Assembly: GCA_037481695.1 (NCBI GenBank)
Contig: JBBFLE010000014.1
Span: 1 to 64,000, forward strand
DNA: 64,000 bases
Direction: 5' to 3'
From: a bacterium
GTDB taxonomy: Bacteria; Desulfobacterota; Desulfocorpusculales; Desulfocorpusculum
The position numbers and the translations under genes are program-made. Under the pieces are notes generated by a model that made no database searches, had not been told where the DNA came from, and saw only the letters and a program-made list of their open reading frames with translations. This document shows, piece after piece, positions 37,632 to 46,185 of the stretch; position 1 is the first letter of the stretch, and each line of letters opens with the position of its first letter.

Positions 37632-38756
37632 ATGGATCAGAACAAGGGTTTTAGGGCCCTGGCCAGCCTGGTTCTAGGCCGGGATCTTTGCACCACTTGT
37701 GGGGCCTGCGCCTGGATCTGTCCTTATTTGGACGCTTTTTCTGCAAGGATAGTCAGGCTCCATGACTGCGATCTGGCAGAAGGACGCTGCTATGCCCATT
37801 GTCCCAGAACAGGACTGGAACTTTCGCACCTCAATGAAAAGCGTTTTGGCTTAAGAGATGTGCCGGTGAAACTGGGCTTTTACAGCAAGATCCTCATGGC
37901 CAGGGCCCAGGACCCTGGGGTTCTTGAGAGAGCCCAGACAGGAGGGGTCGTATCCTCTCTGGTCGCCATGGCCTTGGAAGAGGGGATAGTGGATGCAGCG
38001 CTTCTGACCCGAGTAGGAAAGGATCTATTACCCTCGGGCAAGATAGCCACCAGCAGGGAAGAGGTGTTGGAGTGTGCTGGATCCAGCTATGTGGCCTCCC
38101 CCAGCCTGGCCACACTCAACAGGGGGCCATGGGACGGGGTAGGTCGCATATCGGTGGTGGGGGTGCCCTGTCAGGTCCTGGCCCTGGAAAAGATGAAATC
38201 CTGTGATTTGATTCAGGATGCCCCTGCCCGAAAGGTAGTCTTGAGTATAGGTCTTTTTTGTACCTGGGCCCTTAGTTACGGTCCTTTTATAAATTTTCTG
38301 AGGCAGAGGATCCCCTGGGAGACCGTGGAGAGCATGGACATAAGCCCTCCTCCTGAGAGGATCCTCAGGCTTAAAACATCGGATGGGACAAGAGAGTTTC
38401 CGGTGGAAGAGATTCGCCCCTTTATTCAGCCCGCTTGTGCCTTCTGCGCAGACATGAGCTCAGAGCTGGCTGATCTATCCGTGGGGACCGTGGAGGGGGA
38501 GCCAGGTTGGAACACCTTGATTCTCAGGACTGAGGCCGGAGAATCTCTCCTGGAAAAAGCTATTACCCAAGGGATACTGGAGGTAAAGGCCCTGCCTGCA
38601 GACTATTTGGAACACCTGGTAGAGGCCTCCATCTTGAAGAAAAGAAGGGCCCTGGAAAGACTAAGGAACATGGAGGAAAAAGAATTCAAATACCTGAAGG
38701 CTGATTCATCTTGGTTGGAAGCCGTGGAGAGCGGACCAAAAAGGGGGGAGCCATGA
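37632..38756 (+). CDS. FrhB-like flavin/Fe-S electron-transfer protein
   Basis: A 374-residue member of the coenzyme F420 hydrogenase/dehydrogenase beta-subunit family. An N-terminal ferredoxin-like cluster is visible (C-T-T-C-G-A-C-A-W-I-C-P, residues 20-31) with further Cys in C-Y-A-H-C-P. The FrhB core includes T-G-G-V-V-S-S-L (near 99), G-V-P-C-Q-V (near 177) and a late F-C-A-D cluster. Its stop overlaps the iorA start, so it is probably a functional partner that links the oxidoreductase to another electron carrier. Confidence 0.82.
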   Translation: MDQNKGFRALASLVLGRDLCTTCGACAWICPYLDAFSARIVRLHDCDLAEGRCYAHCPRTGLELSHLNEKRFGLRDVPVKLGFYSKILMARAQDPGVLERAQTGGVVSSLVAMALEEGIVDAALLTRVGKDLLPSGKIATSREEVLECAGSSYVASPSLATLNRGPWDGVGRISVVGVPCQVLALEKMKSCDLIQDAPARKVVLSIGLFCTWALSYGPFINFLRQRIPWETVESMDISPPPERILRLKTSDGTREFPVEEIRPFIQPACAFCADMSSELADLSVGTVEGEPGWNTLILRTEAGESLLEKAITQGILEVKALPADYLEHLVEASILKKRRALERLRNMEEKEFKYLKADSSWLEAVESGPKRGEP

Positions 38757-40663
38757 GCCTAATCAAGACCGATGCCCCTGGCCGCAGGCTGCTTCTGATG
38801 GGCAATGAGGCCATGGCCAGAGGGGCCCTTGAGGCCGGAGTTGAGGTTTGTGCAGCTTACCCTGGCAACCCCTCCTCTGAAATAATTGGATGCCTTTCTC
38901 AGGTGGCAGAAGAGATGGGCATCTATGTGGAATGGTCGGTAAACGAGAAGGTGGCTCTGGAGGTTGCCGCTGCGGCGTCTTTGGCTGGGCTCAGAGGCCT
39001 TGCAGCAATGAAACAAAACGGCCTCAATGTGGCCTCGGACTTCCTTTTGAACCTGAACCTTACCGGCACCAAAGGGGGTCTGGTGGTGGTGGTGTGCGAC
39101 GACCCATCTGCCCTCTCCTCCAGCAATGAGGAAGATTCCAGAGCCTTTGCCAGGTTGGCCGACCTGCCCCTGCTGGAACCCTCAGGTTTCCAAGAGGCCA
39201 AGGAAATGACCAAGTGGGCTTTCGAGCTCTCCGAGGAACTGGGGCTGCCTTGCCTGATCAGGAGTGTCACAAGGGTTTCCCATGCCAGGGGCAACGTGGA
39301 ACTGGGGGAGCTGCCAACACAGAGGCGCCGGGCGCACTTTGATACCTCCAAGCCCATACTGCCGGTGCCAGTGGTATGGGCCCACAGACTCTTGCACCAG
39401 AAACTGGCAAAGTGCAGGGATCGATTCCATGGCAGCGGTTTTAACCAGTACAGGGGCCCTCAGAGACCCGAACTGCTGATCCTCACCAGCGGTGCAGGAT
39501 TCATGTATTCTTTGGAGGCAGTATCAAACCTGGGGCTTGGAGATCGTGTGGGCATAGCCAAGCTGGGCACCACCTGGCCACTTCCAGAAACCTTCCTCAA
39601 AGAGCAGTTGGCCAGGAGCCAAAAGGTCTTGTTCGTGGAGGAGGTGGATCCCTTCATGGAGTCCAATGTGAAGGGGTTTGCCGCCCAAAACCAAACTCAG
39701 CTGGGTCCCAAGATCTTTCTGGGAAAAAGCAGCGGAACTATTCCAGACATAGGTGAGCTTACCCCTGACCATCTCATCAAGGTCCTGAGGGAACTCTTTG
39801 ATGTGAGGTACCAGCCCAGGCCACAGGCTTACATTCAAGAGGCAATGGAGGCTGCCTCCCATTTGGCTCCGCCGCGTACACTTGGCTTTTGCGCAGGTTG
39901 TCCCCATAGGGCCACTTATTGGGCCGTAAAGAAGGCGCTGGCTCTGGACGGCCGGGAAGGTTTTGTGTTGGGGGATATCGGTTGCTACTCCCTGGGCATG
40001 GGGCCTGCCGGCTTTTTCCAAATGAAAACCCTTCATGCCATGGGGTCAGGAGCTGGCTTGGCCAATGGATTTGGCCAGTTGGGCAGATTCGGGCTGGATC
40101 AGCCGGTATTGGCTGTTTGCGGGGACTCCACTTTCTACCATGCCGCCATCCCTGCCCTTGTGAATGCCAAATACAATGGCTCCAGTTTCCTGATGCTTAT
40201 TTTGGATAACAGAGCGACGGCCATGACAGGATTCCAACCTCACCCGGGCACAGGCCGTACAGCCATGGGAGAAACCGTAGACCCCATCGACATAGAGGGG
40301 CTTTGCAGGGCTCTAGGAGTCCAGGTCAAGAGTGTGGATCCATTCGATCTGGACAGCACCGTAGAGGTGCTTACGGATTTTCTAAGACAAGAAAAAGGCG
40401 TAAGGGTGCTAGTGCTCAAGCAGGAATGCGCACTGGTCAGGGGAAAGCGTCAGGGGAGACTCTTCAAGATCAGGGTTGATCAGGATCGTTGTCTGGGCCT
40501 TCAATGTGGGTGCAATCGTCTGTGCACCAGAGTTTTCAGATGTCCTGGATTGGTCTGGGACAGCACATCCGGAAAGGCCACTGTGGATGACGCCATTTGC
40601 ACTGGTTGTGGAGTTTGTGCCACCATATGCCCGGCCTCGGCCATCCTCAAGGAGGCAGTCTGA
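38753..40663 (+). CDS. iorA: Indolepyruvate/aryl-2-oxoacid ferredoxin oxidoreductase, alpha
   Basis: A 636-residue thiamine-diphosphate subunit that oxidatively decarboxylates aryl pyruvates to acyl-CoA with ferredoxin reduction. Pyrimidine- and pyrophosphate-binding domains are both present; the ThDP site is G-D-I-G-C-Y-S-L-G (near 405) and G-D-S-T-F-Y-H-A (near 460). A C-terminal two-cluster ferredoxin domain ends the protein (C-x5-C-x3-C... and C-T-G-C-G-V-C-A-T-I-C-P). The ATG at 38753 overlaps the frhB stop and follows AAGGGGGGAG. Confidence 0.93.
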   Translation: MSLIKTDAPGRRLLLMGNEAMARGALEAGVEVCAAYPGNPSSEIIGCLSQVAEEMGIYVEWSVNEKVALEVAAAASLAGLRGLAAMKQNGLNVASDFLLNLNLTGTKGGLVVVVCDDPSALSSSNEEDSRAFARLADLPLLEPSGFQEAKEMTKWAFELSEELGLPCLIRSVTRVSHARGNVELGELPTQRRRAHFDTSKPILPVPVVWAHRLLHQKLAKCRDRFHGSGFNQYRGPQRPELLILTSGAGFMYSLEAVSNLGLGDRVGIAKLGTTWPLPETFLKEQLARSQKVLFVEEVDPFMESNVKGFAAQNQTQLGPKIFLGKSSGTIPDIGELTPDHLIKVLRELFDVRYQPRPQAYIQEAMEAASHLAPPRTLGFCAGCPHRATYWAVKKALALDGREGFVLGDIGCYSLGMGPAGFFQMKTLHAMGSGAGLANGFGQLGRFGLDQPVLAVCGDSTFYHAAIPALVNAKYNGSSFLMLILDNRATAMTGFQPHPGTGRTAMGETVDPIDIEGLCRALGVQVKSVDPFDLDSTVEVLTDFLRQEKGVRVLVLKQECALVRGKRQGRLFKIRVDQDRCLGLQCGCNRLCTRVFRCPGLVWDSTSGKATVDDAICTGCGVCATICPASAILKEAV

Positions 40664-40666
40664 AAA

Positions 40667-41290
40667 ATGCTTTTGGAGAAGGATCCTTGGAACCTTGTTA
40701 TAACCGGGGTGGGAGGCCAGGGAAATGTTTTGGCTTCTCAGATCCTGGGTCAGATCCTGGTGGACAAGGGGTATCTGGTCACCATAGGGGAAACCTATGG
40801 TGCATCCCAAAGAGGTGGCTCTGTAATGAGTCATTTGCGTGTCTCCACAAGGGATCAGTTCTCACCCATCATCCCAGAGGGGCAGGCAGATCTGGTGATA
40901 GGTCTTGAACCCATAGAGGTATTGAGGGTCATGACCCAGTATGGAAACCCTGGGACCATGGCCCTGATAAATCTTCGACCGGTTCACCCCATTGAGGTCA
41001 TAGCAGGGGAGAGCCGTTACCCTGAAGTGGAAGAGGTGTTGCTCAAGATCAAGAGATTGAGTTCCAGGATCTGGATCTTGAATGCCACTGAAATAGCCCT
41101 GGACATGGGGGATCCTATTTTCTCCAACATGGTCATGCTGGGGGCCTTGTCAGCTCTGAGTCTTCTGCCTGTGGACCAGGAAGGGTTTTGCTCAGCAGCT
41201 CAGAAGCTCATGGGCAGCCACCGCATGCAAGATAATCTCCTGGCCTTTCAAAAGGGCAAAATGGCCATAAAGGAGTACAAGAACGGATAG
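40667..41290 (+). CDS. iorB: Indolepyruvate ferredoxin oxidoreductase, beta
   Basis: A 207-residue gamma-type domain subunit, partner of IorA. It shows the G-V-G-G-Q-G-N-V-L-A motif (near 14-23), G-E-T-Y-G-A-S-Q-R-G-G-S-V (near 42) and the usual ~200-residue length. It starts 3 bases after iorA. With FrhB it forms a three-gene unit. Confidence 0.93.
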   Translation: MLLEKDPWNLVITGVGGQGNVLASQILGQILVDKGYLVTIGETYGASQRGGSVMSHLRVSTRDQFSPIIPEGQADLVIGLEPIEVLRVMTQYGNPGTMALINLRPVHPIEVIAGESRYPEVEEVLLKIKRLSSRIWILNATEIALDMGDPIFSNMVMLGALSALSLLPVDQEGFCSAAQKLMGSHRMQDNLLAFQKGKMAIKEYKNG

Positions 41291-41495: not shown

Positions 41496-41813
41496 TCAGC
41501 TGCTGTACTGGCGAAATATTTCCTGTAGCTCTTGAATCAGAGCTATCTCCATGGGCAGATACGAGTCGTCCTCTAGTACGAACTCCAGGATATAGGTGAG
41601 TTTATGTTCTACTGCTGTGGTGGGATGCTCCACCTTCTGGGTTATGCGGATTTCCTTTAGACCCTTGTAATCTTCTCTTTTGGAGGTCTCGGTTCTCTCT
41701 AGAATCAAAGCCAGACCTTTCCTGGCTTCCTCCACTGTGTCTATGATCACCTCTATGCCCACCAAGCGTTTTATTGCCTTTGTCATTTGATCTTCGTATA
41801 CCTTGATCTTCAT
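41496..41813 (-). CDS. Small uncharacterised protein
   Basis: A 105-residue soluble, charged alpha/beta protein beginning M-K-I-K-V-Y-E-D-Q. No motif recognised. A GGGAGAGAG stretch upstream can serve as ribosome-binding site. It is the last gene of the minus-strand run that begins with the PIG-L deacetylase, 55 bases after the coiled-coil gene. Confidence 0.6.
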   Translation of the reverse strand: MKIKVYEDQMTKAIKRLVGIEVIIDTVEEARKGLALILERTETSKREDYKGLKEIRITQKVEHPTTAVEHKLTYILEFVLEDDSYLPMEIALIQELQEIFRQYSS

Positions 41814-42189: not shown

Positions 42190-43203
42190 TCATGCTTCCA
42201 AATGCCTGAGCTCTATTGCATCTATTCGATCTTCACCCAGTCCCCTTTGACCGGCCAGGGAGATATGAGTTGGGGATCTGTTCTCTTCTTCCAGCGAAGG
42301 CAACCCCAGTTCCCTCCTCCTGGCCGAAAGTATGGATTCTCCTATTCTGTCTAAAGCCACTGGATCACAGGAGATCAACAGCCCGGCAAAAGGCCACACC
42401 CACCGGGGCGAGTATGAAGGCCCCCCATGACATTGAGCCCTGGTGGCGTCGCAGACCACCAGACACTGTCTGCGCCGCAGTTCTGGGTGATCCAATAGAT
42501 CCACCAGATAGGGGCTGCAGGTCTGGTCGTGGTATTTGTTGGGGTTATGGATCACCCCAAAGAGGTTTTTCATTGATATGCTGACCCCTGCTAAATCGTG
42601 ATCCTTCAGAACCGGGACATTGATGAGGCAGGTGGCCCAACGGATGATCACCTGGCTGAAACAAGATCCTATGGAGCCATGTACCCTGGGCATGGGTTCG
42701 TAACCGTAGCGATCTGTGCCAAAACAAAGAGGGCCTTGCTCCTCCTCCCTGATTCTGTAACCGGCCAAGCTGAGTTCTCGGCTTGTACGGTCCCAAATCA
42801 GGATATTGCGGCCAGGCACGCCTGCATCCATGAGTTCAGCAGCCAAGGCCATGGCCACATCAGGGCGCGTTGCTATACCTGGACCTCCTACTCCGTTTAC
42901 CTTGATGGCTATTCGGTCTTGAGGGCTGAAAAACAATTTCCACACATCCCTGGCTTTCTCTGCGGTGAGTTGTTCCAAGCCTCTCCTCAACCAGGTGCGG
43001 ATCAAATCCACCTGGTCCTGTTGATCTTTTCTGGCCAAGCTCTTGTCTCTGATGAGGCAAACCCTGCCTTTGAGCCATGGGAAAGAGGATTGCCATCCAC
43101 CCCAGGAATTCCGGGGCCCAGCAGTGACTGCCATGGCTCCCCAGGCTCCCATGAGCCTCATGAAACACCTTCGCGTAAGGCCCTGGAAGCTCTCAGAAGA
43201 CAT
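42190..43203 (-). CDS. DUF362 family protein with Tat signal
   Basis: About 337 residues. The N-terminus has L-T-R-R-C-F-M-R-L-M-G-A-W-G-A-M-A, a twin-arginine motif plus hydrophobic core, so export in folded form is likely. The body carries DUF362 landmarks K-V-N-G-V-G-G-P-G, I-W-D-R-T and N-V-P-V-L-K-D-H-D-L-A-G-V-S-I-S-M-K-N-L-F-G. Biochemical role is not established. The start overlaps the end of the MEMO1-AMMECR1 gene by 11 bases; an upstream start at 43248 is possible. Coupling suggests a joint function. Confidence 0.75.
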   Translation of the reverse strand: MSSESFQGLTRRCFMRLMGAWGAMAVTAGPRNSWGGWQSSFPWLKGRVCLIRDKSLARKDQQDQVDLIRTWLRRGLEQLTAEKARDVWKLFFSPQDRIAIKVNGVGGPGIATRPDVAMALAAELMDAGVPGRNILIWDRTSRELSLAGYRIREEEQGPLCFGTDRYGYEPMPRVHGSIGSCFSQVIIRWATCLINVPVLKDHDLAGVSISMKNLFGVIHNPNKYHDQTCSPYLVDLLDHPELRRRQCLVVCDATRAQCHGGPSYSPRWVWPFAGLLISCDPVALDRIGESILSARRRELGLPSLEEENRSPTHISLAGQRGLGEDRIDAIELRHLEA

Positions 43204-44674
43204 CGGCAGAAAAGGCGTAGATTTCTGTCTGAGGGTCCTTCCAGGCATCTGGTGGCAAACCGGCTTTGATGCAAGTCTGTGACAGAAAGGTCTCCAGCCC
43301 CCAACCGTTGTCGGTAGCTACCTGAGGAAGAAGAAGACCTCTTCTGGGCCCTCTGACCACGTAAAGGCCGTGGGTCCCCACCTTCACCTGGGAGATATCG
43401 GTTACCCGTTGCATGGGGGTCAGCACGGAAATCTCAACTTCTACCTTTGGCCATTCCTCCTGACTCAGGGGGGGAAACCGAGGGTCTTCAAAAGCCGCGG
43501 CCCTGGCCATGTCCCTTACGGTCTCATAAAGAGGCTTCACGGCTTGGATGAATCCTATGCAGCCCCTGAGTCTCTTGTTTTTCTCCAGGGTGACAAAGGC
43601 GCCTCTGGGCTCGCGCAACCTGGGGGGCACATCAGAGATCTCTGGGGCGGCCTTGCCCTCAAAAGCTGTGGCTATGCTTTGTCTGGCAATGTCTTTGAGC
43701 AGTTTTTTTTCATCCTCGGTAAGCCCCAGATCCACTCCCACCTTGGCTGTTTCCCCTTTTTCTTCTTTCATATCCTTTCTCCAGCACACTGCCCCATAGC
43801 CCACCACCCTGGAATTATCCCCCGAGACTTCTCCTGAATGGGAATAGCCCAGCACCTCCCCCTTTTTCACTCCGGCGCTCCTCACCAGGCGAAGGGTGGT
43901 CAAGATAGGGCCTATACCACAGGCCTCCAGCCTGCCCGCCGAGACTTCCTCCCATAGGCCCTCCGGATCCACCTGTTCCATATACTTTAAGACCCTGCGG
44001 TCCATTTTCTCTGCAACCTGAGAGGGGTAGAAGTGGGAAAGGTCAGAGGATGCCACCACCAGGAATCTGCTCCCATCCATAACTTTCTCAAGAACTTTAG
44101 CCAACTCCTGAGCGCTTTCCAAATCCTGGCTTCCCATTACAAGGGGTATGAGTTTCCAACCACCGGCCAGAGTCTCCTGAAGGAAGGGGACCTGCACCTC
44201 CAGGGCGTGTTCCCTGCTGTGTGCCTCGGGCAGGTCCCGTATCATGAGGCTGGATTTCATCAGAAGATCACATCTTTCTTCATCTACCTGAACCGAACCC
44301 AGGGGAGTACGATAGCTTCCCTTGGGCCAAACCGAAACGCCACGAAACCCCACCCTGTGGCTGGGAGACAATACCACCACTGTATCCAGATGCTGGCCTC
44401 TTACCTGGTTATAACTTAGGCCAGCAACACTCCCGCAGTAAATATAACCAGCATGGGGGGCCAAAATGGCCATGGGTGGAGCCTTGAGGTGGCCGGGCGA
44501 GGAAGCTCCCAAAAAAGCCCTTAACTGTTTCCTCAGCAGCTCGGGCTGATCAGGGTAAAACTGACCTGCCACCGCAGGCTCACGTACCGGTTGCATGGCC
44601 CATACCTCCCCTGCGGCTTGTATAGCCATTGTCGTGAAGCCCATCAACACAGCACAGATGCCAAGGGTTCTCAT
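43193..44674 (-). CDS. Exported MEMO1-AMMECR1 fusion (AmmeMemoRadiSam B+A)
   Basis: A 493-residue fusion. Residues 1-26 form a Sec-type signal peptide ending V-W-A. Residues ~30-295 are a MEMO1-type domain (A-G-Q-F-Y-P, L-A-P-H-A-G-Y-I-Y-C-G, S-P-S-H, S-S-D-L-S-H-F-Y), the class III dioxygenase-like fold. Residues ~315-493 are an AMMECR1 domain (R-G-A-F-V-T-L-E-K...L-R-G-C-I-G-F). The third partner of this system, a radical SAM enzyme, is not adjacent. ATG 44674 starts the signal peptide; a TTG at 44725 is possible. It lies 20 bases after cysS. Confidence 0.85.
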   Translation of the reverse strand: MRTLGICAVLMGFTTMAIQAAGEVWAMQPVREPAVAGQFYPDQPELLRKQLRAFLGASSPGHLKAPPMAILAPHAGYIYCGSVAGLSYNQVRGQHLDTVVVLSPSHRVGFRGVSVWPKGSYRTPLGSVQVDEERCDLLMKSSLMIRDLPEAHSREHALEVQVPFLQETLAGGWKLIPLVMGSQDLESAQELAKVLEKVMDGSRFLVVASSDLSHFYPSQVAEKMDRRVLKYMEQVDPEGLWEEVSAGRLEACGIGPILTTLRLVRSAGVKKGEVLGYSHSGEVSGDNSRVVGYGAVCWRKDMKEEKGETAKVGVDLGLTEDEKKLLKDIARQSIATAFEGKAAPEISDVPPRLREPRGAFVTLEKNKRLRGCIGFIQAVKPLYETVRDMARAAAFEDPRFPPLSQEEWPKVEVEISVLTPMQRVTDISQVKVGTHGLYVVRGPRRGLLLPQVATDNGWGLETFLSQTCIKAGLPPDAWKDPQTEIYAFSADVF

Positions 44675-44694: not shown

Positions 44695-46185
44695 TCAGTG
44701 AAAGGCTCCTGGTCTTATTTTCCAAGTAGTGCCTTGCGGCGAATCCAAAACCTGAATTCCTTTGGCAGCAAGTTCATCCCGGATTCTGTCGGCTTCGGAA
44801 AAGTTGCGTTCCAGGCGCGCTTGGGATCTCTTTCGCAGAAGTGATTCAATCTGCTCTCTTTGGATCCCCAGGCGTCCCAAAAGCAGATTCTCCTTTTGAG
44901 ACTGGAACTGTGCTGGGGAAAGCTGCAAAATGCCCAGGCACTCCCGCGCCAATTTAAAGCAGGCCAAGGCAGCCTCTAGCACAACCAAAGCCCCTGGGTC
45001 GGTTGCGCTCTCATCCAGCCACTGGTTCAAGTTTCTGGTGAGTTCGAAAATCCCTGCCATGGCCCTGGGGGTGTTAAAGTCATCTTCCATGGCCTCATGA
45101 AAGCTTTTTTGGAATTGCCCTATGAAGCCAGGTAGTTGCCTGGCCGAATCAAGCTCCTGCGAGGCCCCTGAAATCTTTTGCCCCTGAGCTTGTAGAGCAT
45201 GTTTTTCCAGACGTTCCAGGGTTCCGTAGAGCCTGTCCAAGGCTGCTTGGGCCTCGGCCATGCCTGCCTCTGTGAAGTCCAGGGGTTTGCGATAGTGGGT
45301 CATGAGGAAAAAAAGGCGGATTTCCTCGGGATGGTAGCGCTCCAGGGTTTCACGGATAGTCAGGATGTTTCCCAGGGACTTGGACATCTTGACCCTTTCC
45401 CTGGTAAGAGGGCCGTTGTGAATCCAGAATCTAGCCAGGGGTTTTCCAGTGAGAGCCTCTGACTGAGCTATCTCATTTTCGTGATGGGGGAAGACCAGAT
45501 CCAGACCCCCACCGTGGATGTCCAGGGGCTGCCCCAGATATTTCTGGCTCATGCAAGAGCACTCTATGTGCCAACCTGGCCTGCCTAGCCCCCATGGACT
45601 CTCCCAAGCAGGCTCTCCTGGCTTGCTTTTTTTCCAAAGAGCAAAATCCAGGGGATCCTTTTTTCTTTCGTCAGGCTCCACCCTGGCCCCGGCCATCATC
45701 TGGTCTCTGTCCCTTCGGGAAAGCTTTCCATATCCCTGGAAACTGGAGACCGAAAAGTACACGTTTCCATCCACCGCATATGCCACCCCTTTTTCCTCCA
45801 GAGCTCTTATCATCTGGATCATATCGGCCACATGCTCTGTGGCAAGGGGCTCCAGGGTGGGGGAAAGAACTCCCAGATTTGCCATGTCCCTCTGAAATGC
45901 TTCTATATATTTCCTGGATATCTCGTTCCATTGAAGCCCTTCCCTTTGGGCCCTGTCCAGTATCTTATCGTCTATGTCAGTGAAGTTCCTTATGTATTTT
46001 ACCTCCAAACCCATGTATTGAAGGTATCTGTATATCACGTCAAAAACAATGGCCGAGCGCGCGTGTCCCACGTGGCACTCGTCGTAAACGGTGACACCGC
46101 ACACATACATTCGAACCCGCCCCGGCTCAAGGGGTTCAAAAGGCTCTTTACGGTGGGTAAGGGAATTATAGATCTGAAGTGCCAT
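44695..46185 (-). CDS. cysS: Cysteinyl-tRNA synthetase
   Basis: A 496-residue class I synthetase with all functional motifs: C-G-V-T-V-Y-D and H-V-G-H, zinc ligands in W-H-I-E-C and H-H-E-N-E, and an intact K-M-S-K-S-L-G-N. It charges tRNA-Cys. This is the canonical copy; a degenerate copy is fused to cysteine synthase at 59074-61389. ATG 46185 gives the usual M-A-L-Q-I-Y-N-S-L start. A PIG-L deacetylase lies upstream and the MEMO1 fusion downstream on the same strand. Confidence 0.95.
   Translation of the reverse strand: MALQIYNSLTHRKEPFEPLEPGRVRMYVCGVTVYDECHVGHARSAIVFDVIYRYLQYMGLEVKYIRNFTDIDDKILDRAQREGLQWNEISRKYIEAFQRDMANLGVLSPTLEPLATEHVADMIQMIRALEEKGVAYAVDGNVYFSVSSFQGYGKLSRRDRDQMMAGARVEPDERKKDPLDFALWKKSKPGEPAWESPWGLGRPGWHIECSCMSQKYLGQPLDIHGGGLDLVFPHHENEIAQSEALTGKPLARFWIHNGPLTRERVKMSKSLGNILTIRETLERYHPEEIRLFFLMTHYRKPLDFTEAGMAEAQAALDRLYGTLERLEKHALQAQGQKISGASQELDSARQLPGFIGQFQKSFHEAMEDDFNTPRAMAGIFELTRNLNQWLDESATDPGALVVLEAALACFKLARECLGILQLSPAQFQSQKENLLLGRLGIQREQIESLLRKRSQARLERNFSEADRIRDELAAKGIQVLDSPQGTTWKIRPGAFH

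Follow-up and report, generated by a model that had tools for sequence, protein, structure and literature searches.

The gene analyzed here, which encodes a fusion of MEMO1 and AMMECR1 homologues, probably serves two parallel AmmeMemoRadiSam systems, one cytosolic and one extracytoplasmic, that would share it by means of two translational starts. The initial annotation of this locus proposed an extracytoplasmic version of the MEMO1-AMMECR1 system, and this proposal is now strongly supported across many genomes by co-occurring export signals, a separate clade of Tat-type radical SAM enzymes, and gene linkage. The exported system is widespread in bacteria and appears to be previously undescribed; no report of exported AmmeMemoRadiSam forms was found in the literature searched, the scope of which lay largely outside subscription journals. 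A broader statement, namely that all parts of a radical SAM system work beyond the cytoplasmic membrane, in some lineages with a c-type heme fused to the radical SAM enzyme as its donor of electrons, and that the MEMO-AMMECR1 component of both systems comes from one gene with two starts (an arrangement resolved several times by gene duplication), is one to which we would give roughly even chances.

In the window (i.e., the whole 64,000-nucleotide stretch of DNA under analysis), the fusion occupies positions 43193-44674 of the reverse strand as a single open reading frame, which encodes a long form of 493 aa when read from the ATG at 44674; a TTG further upstream, at 44725, lies inside cysS. 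As originally annotated, both domains are present in this one frame; they exceed the curated Pfam and NCBIfam cut-offs. The MEMO domain (43790-44581, reverse strand; residues 32-295) matches PF01875 with an E value of 1.7e-70 and TIGR04336 with 274 bits (cut-off 26 bits), and the AMMECR1 domain (43196-43690, reverse strand; residues 329-493), which contains the LRGCIG motif and is the sole AMMECR1 in the window genome, matches PF01871 with an E value of 2.4e-59 and TIGR04335 with 194.5 bits (cut-off 99 bits). The metal ligands matching human H49, H81, and C244 are present in the MEMO domain, and all 101 fusions compared, with or without a signal, retain these ligands and the LRGCIG cysteine unchanged, which suggests that the active sites in use are identical in the two compartments. 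The nearest relative of the window genome (G000) with the cysS-fusion-DUF362 region, G001, has a fusion orthologue that is 58% identical, in the same gene order. Two further MEMO genes in the window genome, on C8 (L075:5541-6812) and C4 (L074:5431-6288), are located near neither an AMMECR1 nor a radical SAM gene; one has a long N-terminal domain before its MEMO domain, and the other is followed by a Nudix-like gene.

The N-terminus of the fusion reads MRTLGICAVLMGFTTMAIQAAGEVWA followed directly by M, the former being a signal-peptide segment of 26 residues (44597-44674, reverse strand) with a 12-residue hydropathy of 1.95. Directly after this segment is an in-frame ATG (44594-44596, reverse strand), overlooked in the initial annotation, from which a putative cytosolic short form, MQPVREPAVAGQFYP..., would begin, and the start of this form matches that of signal-less forms (e.g., L092 and L107). 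The internal ATG is preceded by the Shine-Dalgarno (SD) sequence GGGGAGGT (44604-44611, reverse strand), whose pairing with the anti-SD yields -12.5 kcal/mol of duplex energy; the SD at the upstream start, ATG 44674, is weak (-1.6 kcal/mol). Judged by these elements, the gene looks built to yield exported and internal versions of the protein. Fusion-gene N-termini were read in about 100 genomes, all from one phylum and many of them draft assemblies, with signal peptides called by simple hydropathy and localisation assigned by sequence.

The statement in the initial annotation that the fusion lacks a radical SAM partner is correct for its neighbourhood but not for the genome. When the genome was searched, two TIGR04337 enzymes were found, C18:44240-45256 (374 bits) and C20:41529-42512 (342 bits), both over the cut-off of 220 bits; the fusion (C14) and the two radical SAM genes are on separate contigs and are not adjacent in the window genome, adjacency of the three AmmeMemoRadiSam genes being common without being a requirement. 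The C18 enzyme has approximately 50 residues before its catalytic domain, containing CRRDFAWTLWLGSCGLALSS, a signal that gives no match to the Tat model TIGR01409, and the C20 enzyme starts almost at its catalytic domain and is of the signal-less, cytosolic type. TatC is present. A dual start in the C18 gene (AAGGAGGTGATG) was considered and dropped, given that the spacing is too short and that a separate cytosolic gene exists. The N-termini of radical SAM relatives likewise form two groups, one with signals like TRRDFLKFCG, SRRDFLATLAKLAATAGG, and DRRDFLKTAAGGACLLSL and one with no signal; of eight radical SAM examples, four score over the TIGR01409 cut-off of 16.7 bits and one more is near it. 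The CX3CX2C motif is kept, and stops reported within radical SAM matches, which could have marked pseudogenes, proved in the cases read to be natural stops at the match ends.

A tree of 179 radical SAM catalytic parts, from which the N-termini were excluded, contains two clades (support 99) with five state changes overall; all 91 members of the first are signal-less and 82 of the 88 members of the second have Tat-like signals, some of these Tat labels (G000, G045, G136, G247, G267, G325, and G394) having been assigned by eye where the automatic hydropathy threshold was narrowly missed. The window genome has one member in each clade, the C18 enzyme being that of the Tat clade. Among the 80 genomes with one fusion, 58 combine a signal on the fusion with a Tat-type radical SAM enzyme, 16 have neither, and 6 are discordant (Fisher 1e-11), counts that, like those of the internal-start test below, are weakened by the relatedness of the genomes; independent pairs on the tree run in the right direction without reaching significance (3.6 of 5 agree, 0 against). 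Four of the six discordant genomes have assemblies in which the gene for the radical SAM enzyme is absent, unread, or truncated. In relatives, almost all exported-only fusions are neighbours of a Tat-type radical SAM gene, and on a Desulfovibrionales contig (L039) such a gene comes immediately after a signal-bearing fusion. Three genomes of family f8 (G009, G045, and G136) have 4-5 TIGR04337 genes each, several of them Tat-like and some in tandem.

Independent support for export comes from eight Tat-type radical SAM proteins of five families, which carry a c-heme signature, consisting of a CXXCH motif and a later conserved His, between the Tat signal and the catalytic domain (genomes G081, G152, G200, G246, G306, G319, G320, and G394; loci L184, L230, L237, L227, L182, L166, L142, and L251), since attachment of c-type heme takes place exclusively outside the cytoplasm. 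In signal-less members, CXXCH is confined to the cysteine motifs of the domain itself. The additional motif suggests an electron route to the radical SAM enzyme.

Export of the fusion might nonetheless be its only fate: the long form would then be the sole product, the SD within the signal peptide would be fortuitous or a mere pause, and the cytosolic radical SAM enzyme would work without AMMECR1. G/A-rich signal-peptide codons can mimic an SD, and a strong internal start is lacking from eight genomes with a single AMMECR1, most of which retain a cytosolic radical SAM enzyme. We nevertheless regard exclusive export as rather unlikely. The internal SD of the window gene is stronger than that of every one of the 721 ordinary internal ATGs tested in fusion genes, none of which reaches -12.5 kcal/mol (9.8% reach -7), and strong internal starts concentrate in genomes without another AMMECR1. 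Under a criterion of SD duplex energy <= -7 kcal/mol, chosen post hoc after the data had been seen, a strong internal start is found in 32 of the 40 signal-bearing fusions that hold their genome's only AMMECR1 and in 3 of the 37 whose genome has another, one of these three (L136) being in reality a signal-less copy. A rank test of internal-start strength against AMMECR1 copy status, for which no cut-off is needed, gives a p value of 1.6e-10, and independent pairs on the tree again point in the right direction, short of significance (3.2 of 6 agree, 0.1 against).

Gene loss and gene duplication bear on the same question. Within family f39, three genomes (G040, G074, and G105) have only a cytosolic radical SAM enzyme, no membrane partner (described below), and a decayed or truncated signal, and their sister G159 has the full exported set intact; as the internal start is kept in all four, the first three appear to rely on it following decay of the signal, which also speaks against exclusive export. 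Every genome with two fusions (12/12) has one signal-bearing and one signal-less copy, and the f71 and f91 copies, most of them exported-only, form a clade of the fusion tree whose sister clade is signal-less, as expected if one dual-use gene had split into two. With its one AMMECR1, the window genome has a pair of radical SAM enzymes, so that each side of the membrane has its own. From these patterns, we infer dual targeting of the fusion protein from two starts.

The initial annotation also recognized that a true start downstream of the signal segment would undermine export. Such a start exists in ATG 44596, and the evidence favours the use of both starts. Were translation to begin at 44596 alone, the hydrophobic stretch would be untranslated and the gene an ordinary AmmeMemoRadiSam component, in keeping with the near-perfect SD and MEMO-typical start at this position, with the weak SD at 44674, and with G001, which lacks an ATG before the hydrophobic segment and has only a GTG further up. 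We find this purely cytosolic reading improbable, somewhat more so than exclusive export. The hydrophobic segment, which is led by a start codon and in frame, is unlikely to be a product of chance: a comparable start-led segment in the open frame arose in 0.17% of the dinucleotide shuffles made of these 120 nt, and 2.3% of random stretches from the window contain one. As far as hydropathy and shuffles show, the signal-peptide-like N-terminus first annotated is thereby confirmed. Lipobox-type signal peptides are found at the equivalent place of the fusion in other families, and the signal segments evolve as coding sequence, with pN/pS values of 0.52-0.65 versus 0.21 downstream (families f20, f8, and f11). 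Moreover, the window genome possesses a Tat-clade radical SAM enzyme, the membrane partner, and a DUF362 protein of the relevant subfamily, all of which accompany exported fusions.

The membrane partner, a polytopic membrane protein of approximately 730 residues, was identified in 48 genomes by clustering of neighbour genes and is represented in the window genome at G000:C3:301573-303795 (433 bits). It is present at full length in 26 of the 28 genomes with an intact fusion signal (absent from G364 and G186) and in 2 of the 21 without one, G155 and G025, each of which nonetheless possesses a radical SAM gene of the Tat type. That of G025 (L340:5053-6126) is divergent, scores below the TIGR04337 cut-off, has a Tat-like signal, TRRSFLKEISKCFFAIFGF, and directly adjoins the membrane partner. 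The genes for the fusion, the Tat-DUF362 protein, the Tat-radical-SAM enzyme, and the membrane protein are consecutive on a Planctomycetota contig, VGYT01000265.1 (L040). The central domain of the membrane partner matches spermidine synthase (PF01564, E value 7e-26), and its N-terminal membrane part is similar to that of the membrane-fused forms (PRK03612); unlike the membrane-fused spermidine synthases, however, it has a second membrane block after the domain, such that membrane blocks are situated on both sides. The first aspartate of DxTDP is replaced (IIGMPEPSS instead of IIDLTDPVG), making aminopropyl transfer by this protein unlikely.

The DUF362 gene (42190-43203, reverse strand; PF04015 E value 1.3e-20, over cut-off) starts at ATG 43203 or 43248 and, as first annotated, overlaps the 3' end of the fusion, by 11 or 56 nt, respectively. 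The N-terminus of its product, SFQGLTRRCFMRLMGAWG, first annotated as that of a Tat substrate, appears Tat-like by eye, with a twin-arginine motif, TRRCFM (43159-43176, reverse strand), and a hydrophobic stretch after it, but its TIGR01409 score of 14.2 bits is below the cut-off of 16.7. Clearer Tat signals are found in the DUF362 proteins of G001 (DRRRFLQRAGLGLLGLWL, with DRRRFLQ) and L040 (TRRAFLT). Pfam groups DUF362 proteins at large (PF04015) and the LarA racemases in one clan, CL0471 (PMC11770544). The window protein shares the family domain and belongs to a subfamily (>=400 bits to alignment A3) that is set apart by mostly Tat-like signals, by an invariant HNPNKYH, and by its confinement, among the 80 genomes searched, to 8 genomes, all of which have the exported system; in 7 of these 8, the gene lies next to either the fusion or the radical SAM gene of the Tat type. 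The sequence comparison yielded no relative of known structure for the protein, and a role in Fe-S redox chemistry was dropped because no cysteine cluster is conserved in the subfamily alignment. Downstream of the DUF362 gene, a 105-aa ORF (41496-41813, reverse strand) without a Pfam match has a 68% identical counterpart at the same place in G001, and three genes at 37632-41290 (forward strand) resemble by eye a coenzyme F420 hydrogenase-type FeS protein and two indolepyruvate ferredoxin oxidoreductase subunits.

The annotated partnership of DUF362 with the fusion thus stands as regards linkage and co-occurrence and falls as regards replacement of the radical SAM enzyme, as the presence of a Tat-clade radical SAM enzyme on another contig makes DUF362 an accessory. 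An extracytoplasmic MEMO-AMMECR1 protein that dispenses with radical SAM and relies on DUF362 in its place for redox or metal functions, as might be read from the position of DUF362 directly downstream of the fusion (conserved in G001 and G239), is scarcely credible, for the window genome has TIGR04337 enzymes, as do almost all of the fusion genomes that were searched, and DUF362 is located between the fusion and the Tat-type radical SAM gene in G239 and L040.

In the favoured arrangement of two systems with one shared gene, the long form would be exported by Sec from ATG 44674 and would function outside with the Tat-exported radical SAM enzyme (C18), the membrane protein (C3), and the Tat-exported DUF362 protein, and the short form from ATG 44596 would serve the ordinary radical SAM enzyme (C20) inside; the sequences themselves show the domains with their metal ligands, the signals, the internal start, and how the parts are linked and co-occur, whereas translation from both starts, export, and physical association are what we infer from the comparisons above. 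Held at or near the membrane, the exported fusion most likely joins the Tat-exported radical SAM enzyme in acting on a substrate associated with the membrane. The membrane protein may supply this substrate or a SAM-related ligand, and DUF362 may take part in an accessory step in some lineages. The reaction is probably a radical or metal-dependent modification of the membrane-associated substrate with electrons from c-type hemes. In 2019, Burroughs et al. reportedly linked Memo contexts to nucleotide-base and isoprenoid modification; as the exported form is membrane-linked, an isoprenoid or quinone-like lipid would be the better fit. Radical SAM enzymes, which need SAM and low-potential electrons, are treated as cytosolic, and we know of no obvious SAM source for extracytoplasmic radical SAM chemistry, a point that counts against the exported system.

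To our knowledge, MEMO1 and AMMECR1 are disease-linked human proteins without a known molecular function; their structures have already been solved, and they and the associated radical SAM proteins have always been assumed to be intracellular. An exported version would tie MEMO1 and AMMECR1 to a membrane protein, to DUF362, and perhaps to extracytoplasmic electron carriers, ties that narrow the possible substrates and provide a compact gene set. A radical SAM clade with Tat signals, and in part with heme motifs, likewise challenges the cytosolic-only view of these enzymes. For bacterial dual targeting, the dual-start gene together with its division into paralogues would be a clear example from nature.

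Compared with known systems, the proteins described herein belong to the same three families as AmmeMemoRadiSam (TIGR04335, TIGR04336, and TIGR04337) and keep its MEMO ligands, LRGCIG, and CX3CX2C; they differ in that MEMO and AMMECR1 are fused and preceded by a signal peptide, the radical SAM enzyme has a Tat-like signal, a membrane protein (and in some lineages DUF362) is added, and the parts are scattered over the chromosome of the window genome. Pyruvate formate-lyase activating enzyme is not known to carry an export signal or additional cysteine motifs at its N- and C-terminal ends such as those of the Tat-type radical SAM enzymes. It is nonetheless their nearest solved relative by sequence (PDB 3c8f, E value 1e-4). 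The MEMO domain aligns with human MEMO1 (PDB 7KQ8) with an E value of 1.2e-22, and the human metal ligands H49, H81, and C244 (PMC11081632) are conserved, although human MEMO1 consists of one domain and lacks a signal peptide, as opposed to the signal-bearing fusion described here. Lastly, bacterial N-terminal proteoform pairs likewise derive from two in-frame starts of one gene, with and without a signal peptide, as for PagC and OmpX of Salmonella (PMC11005335); the putative dual start of the fusion differs from these pairs in being deduced from comparative genomics and in tracking the copy number of a partner domain.
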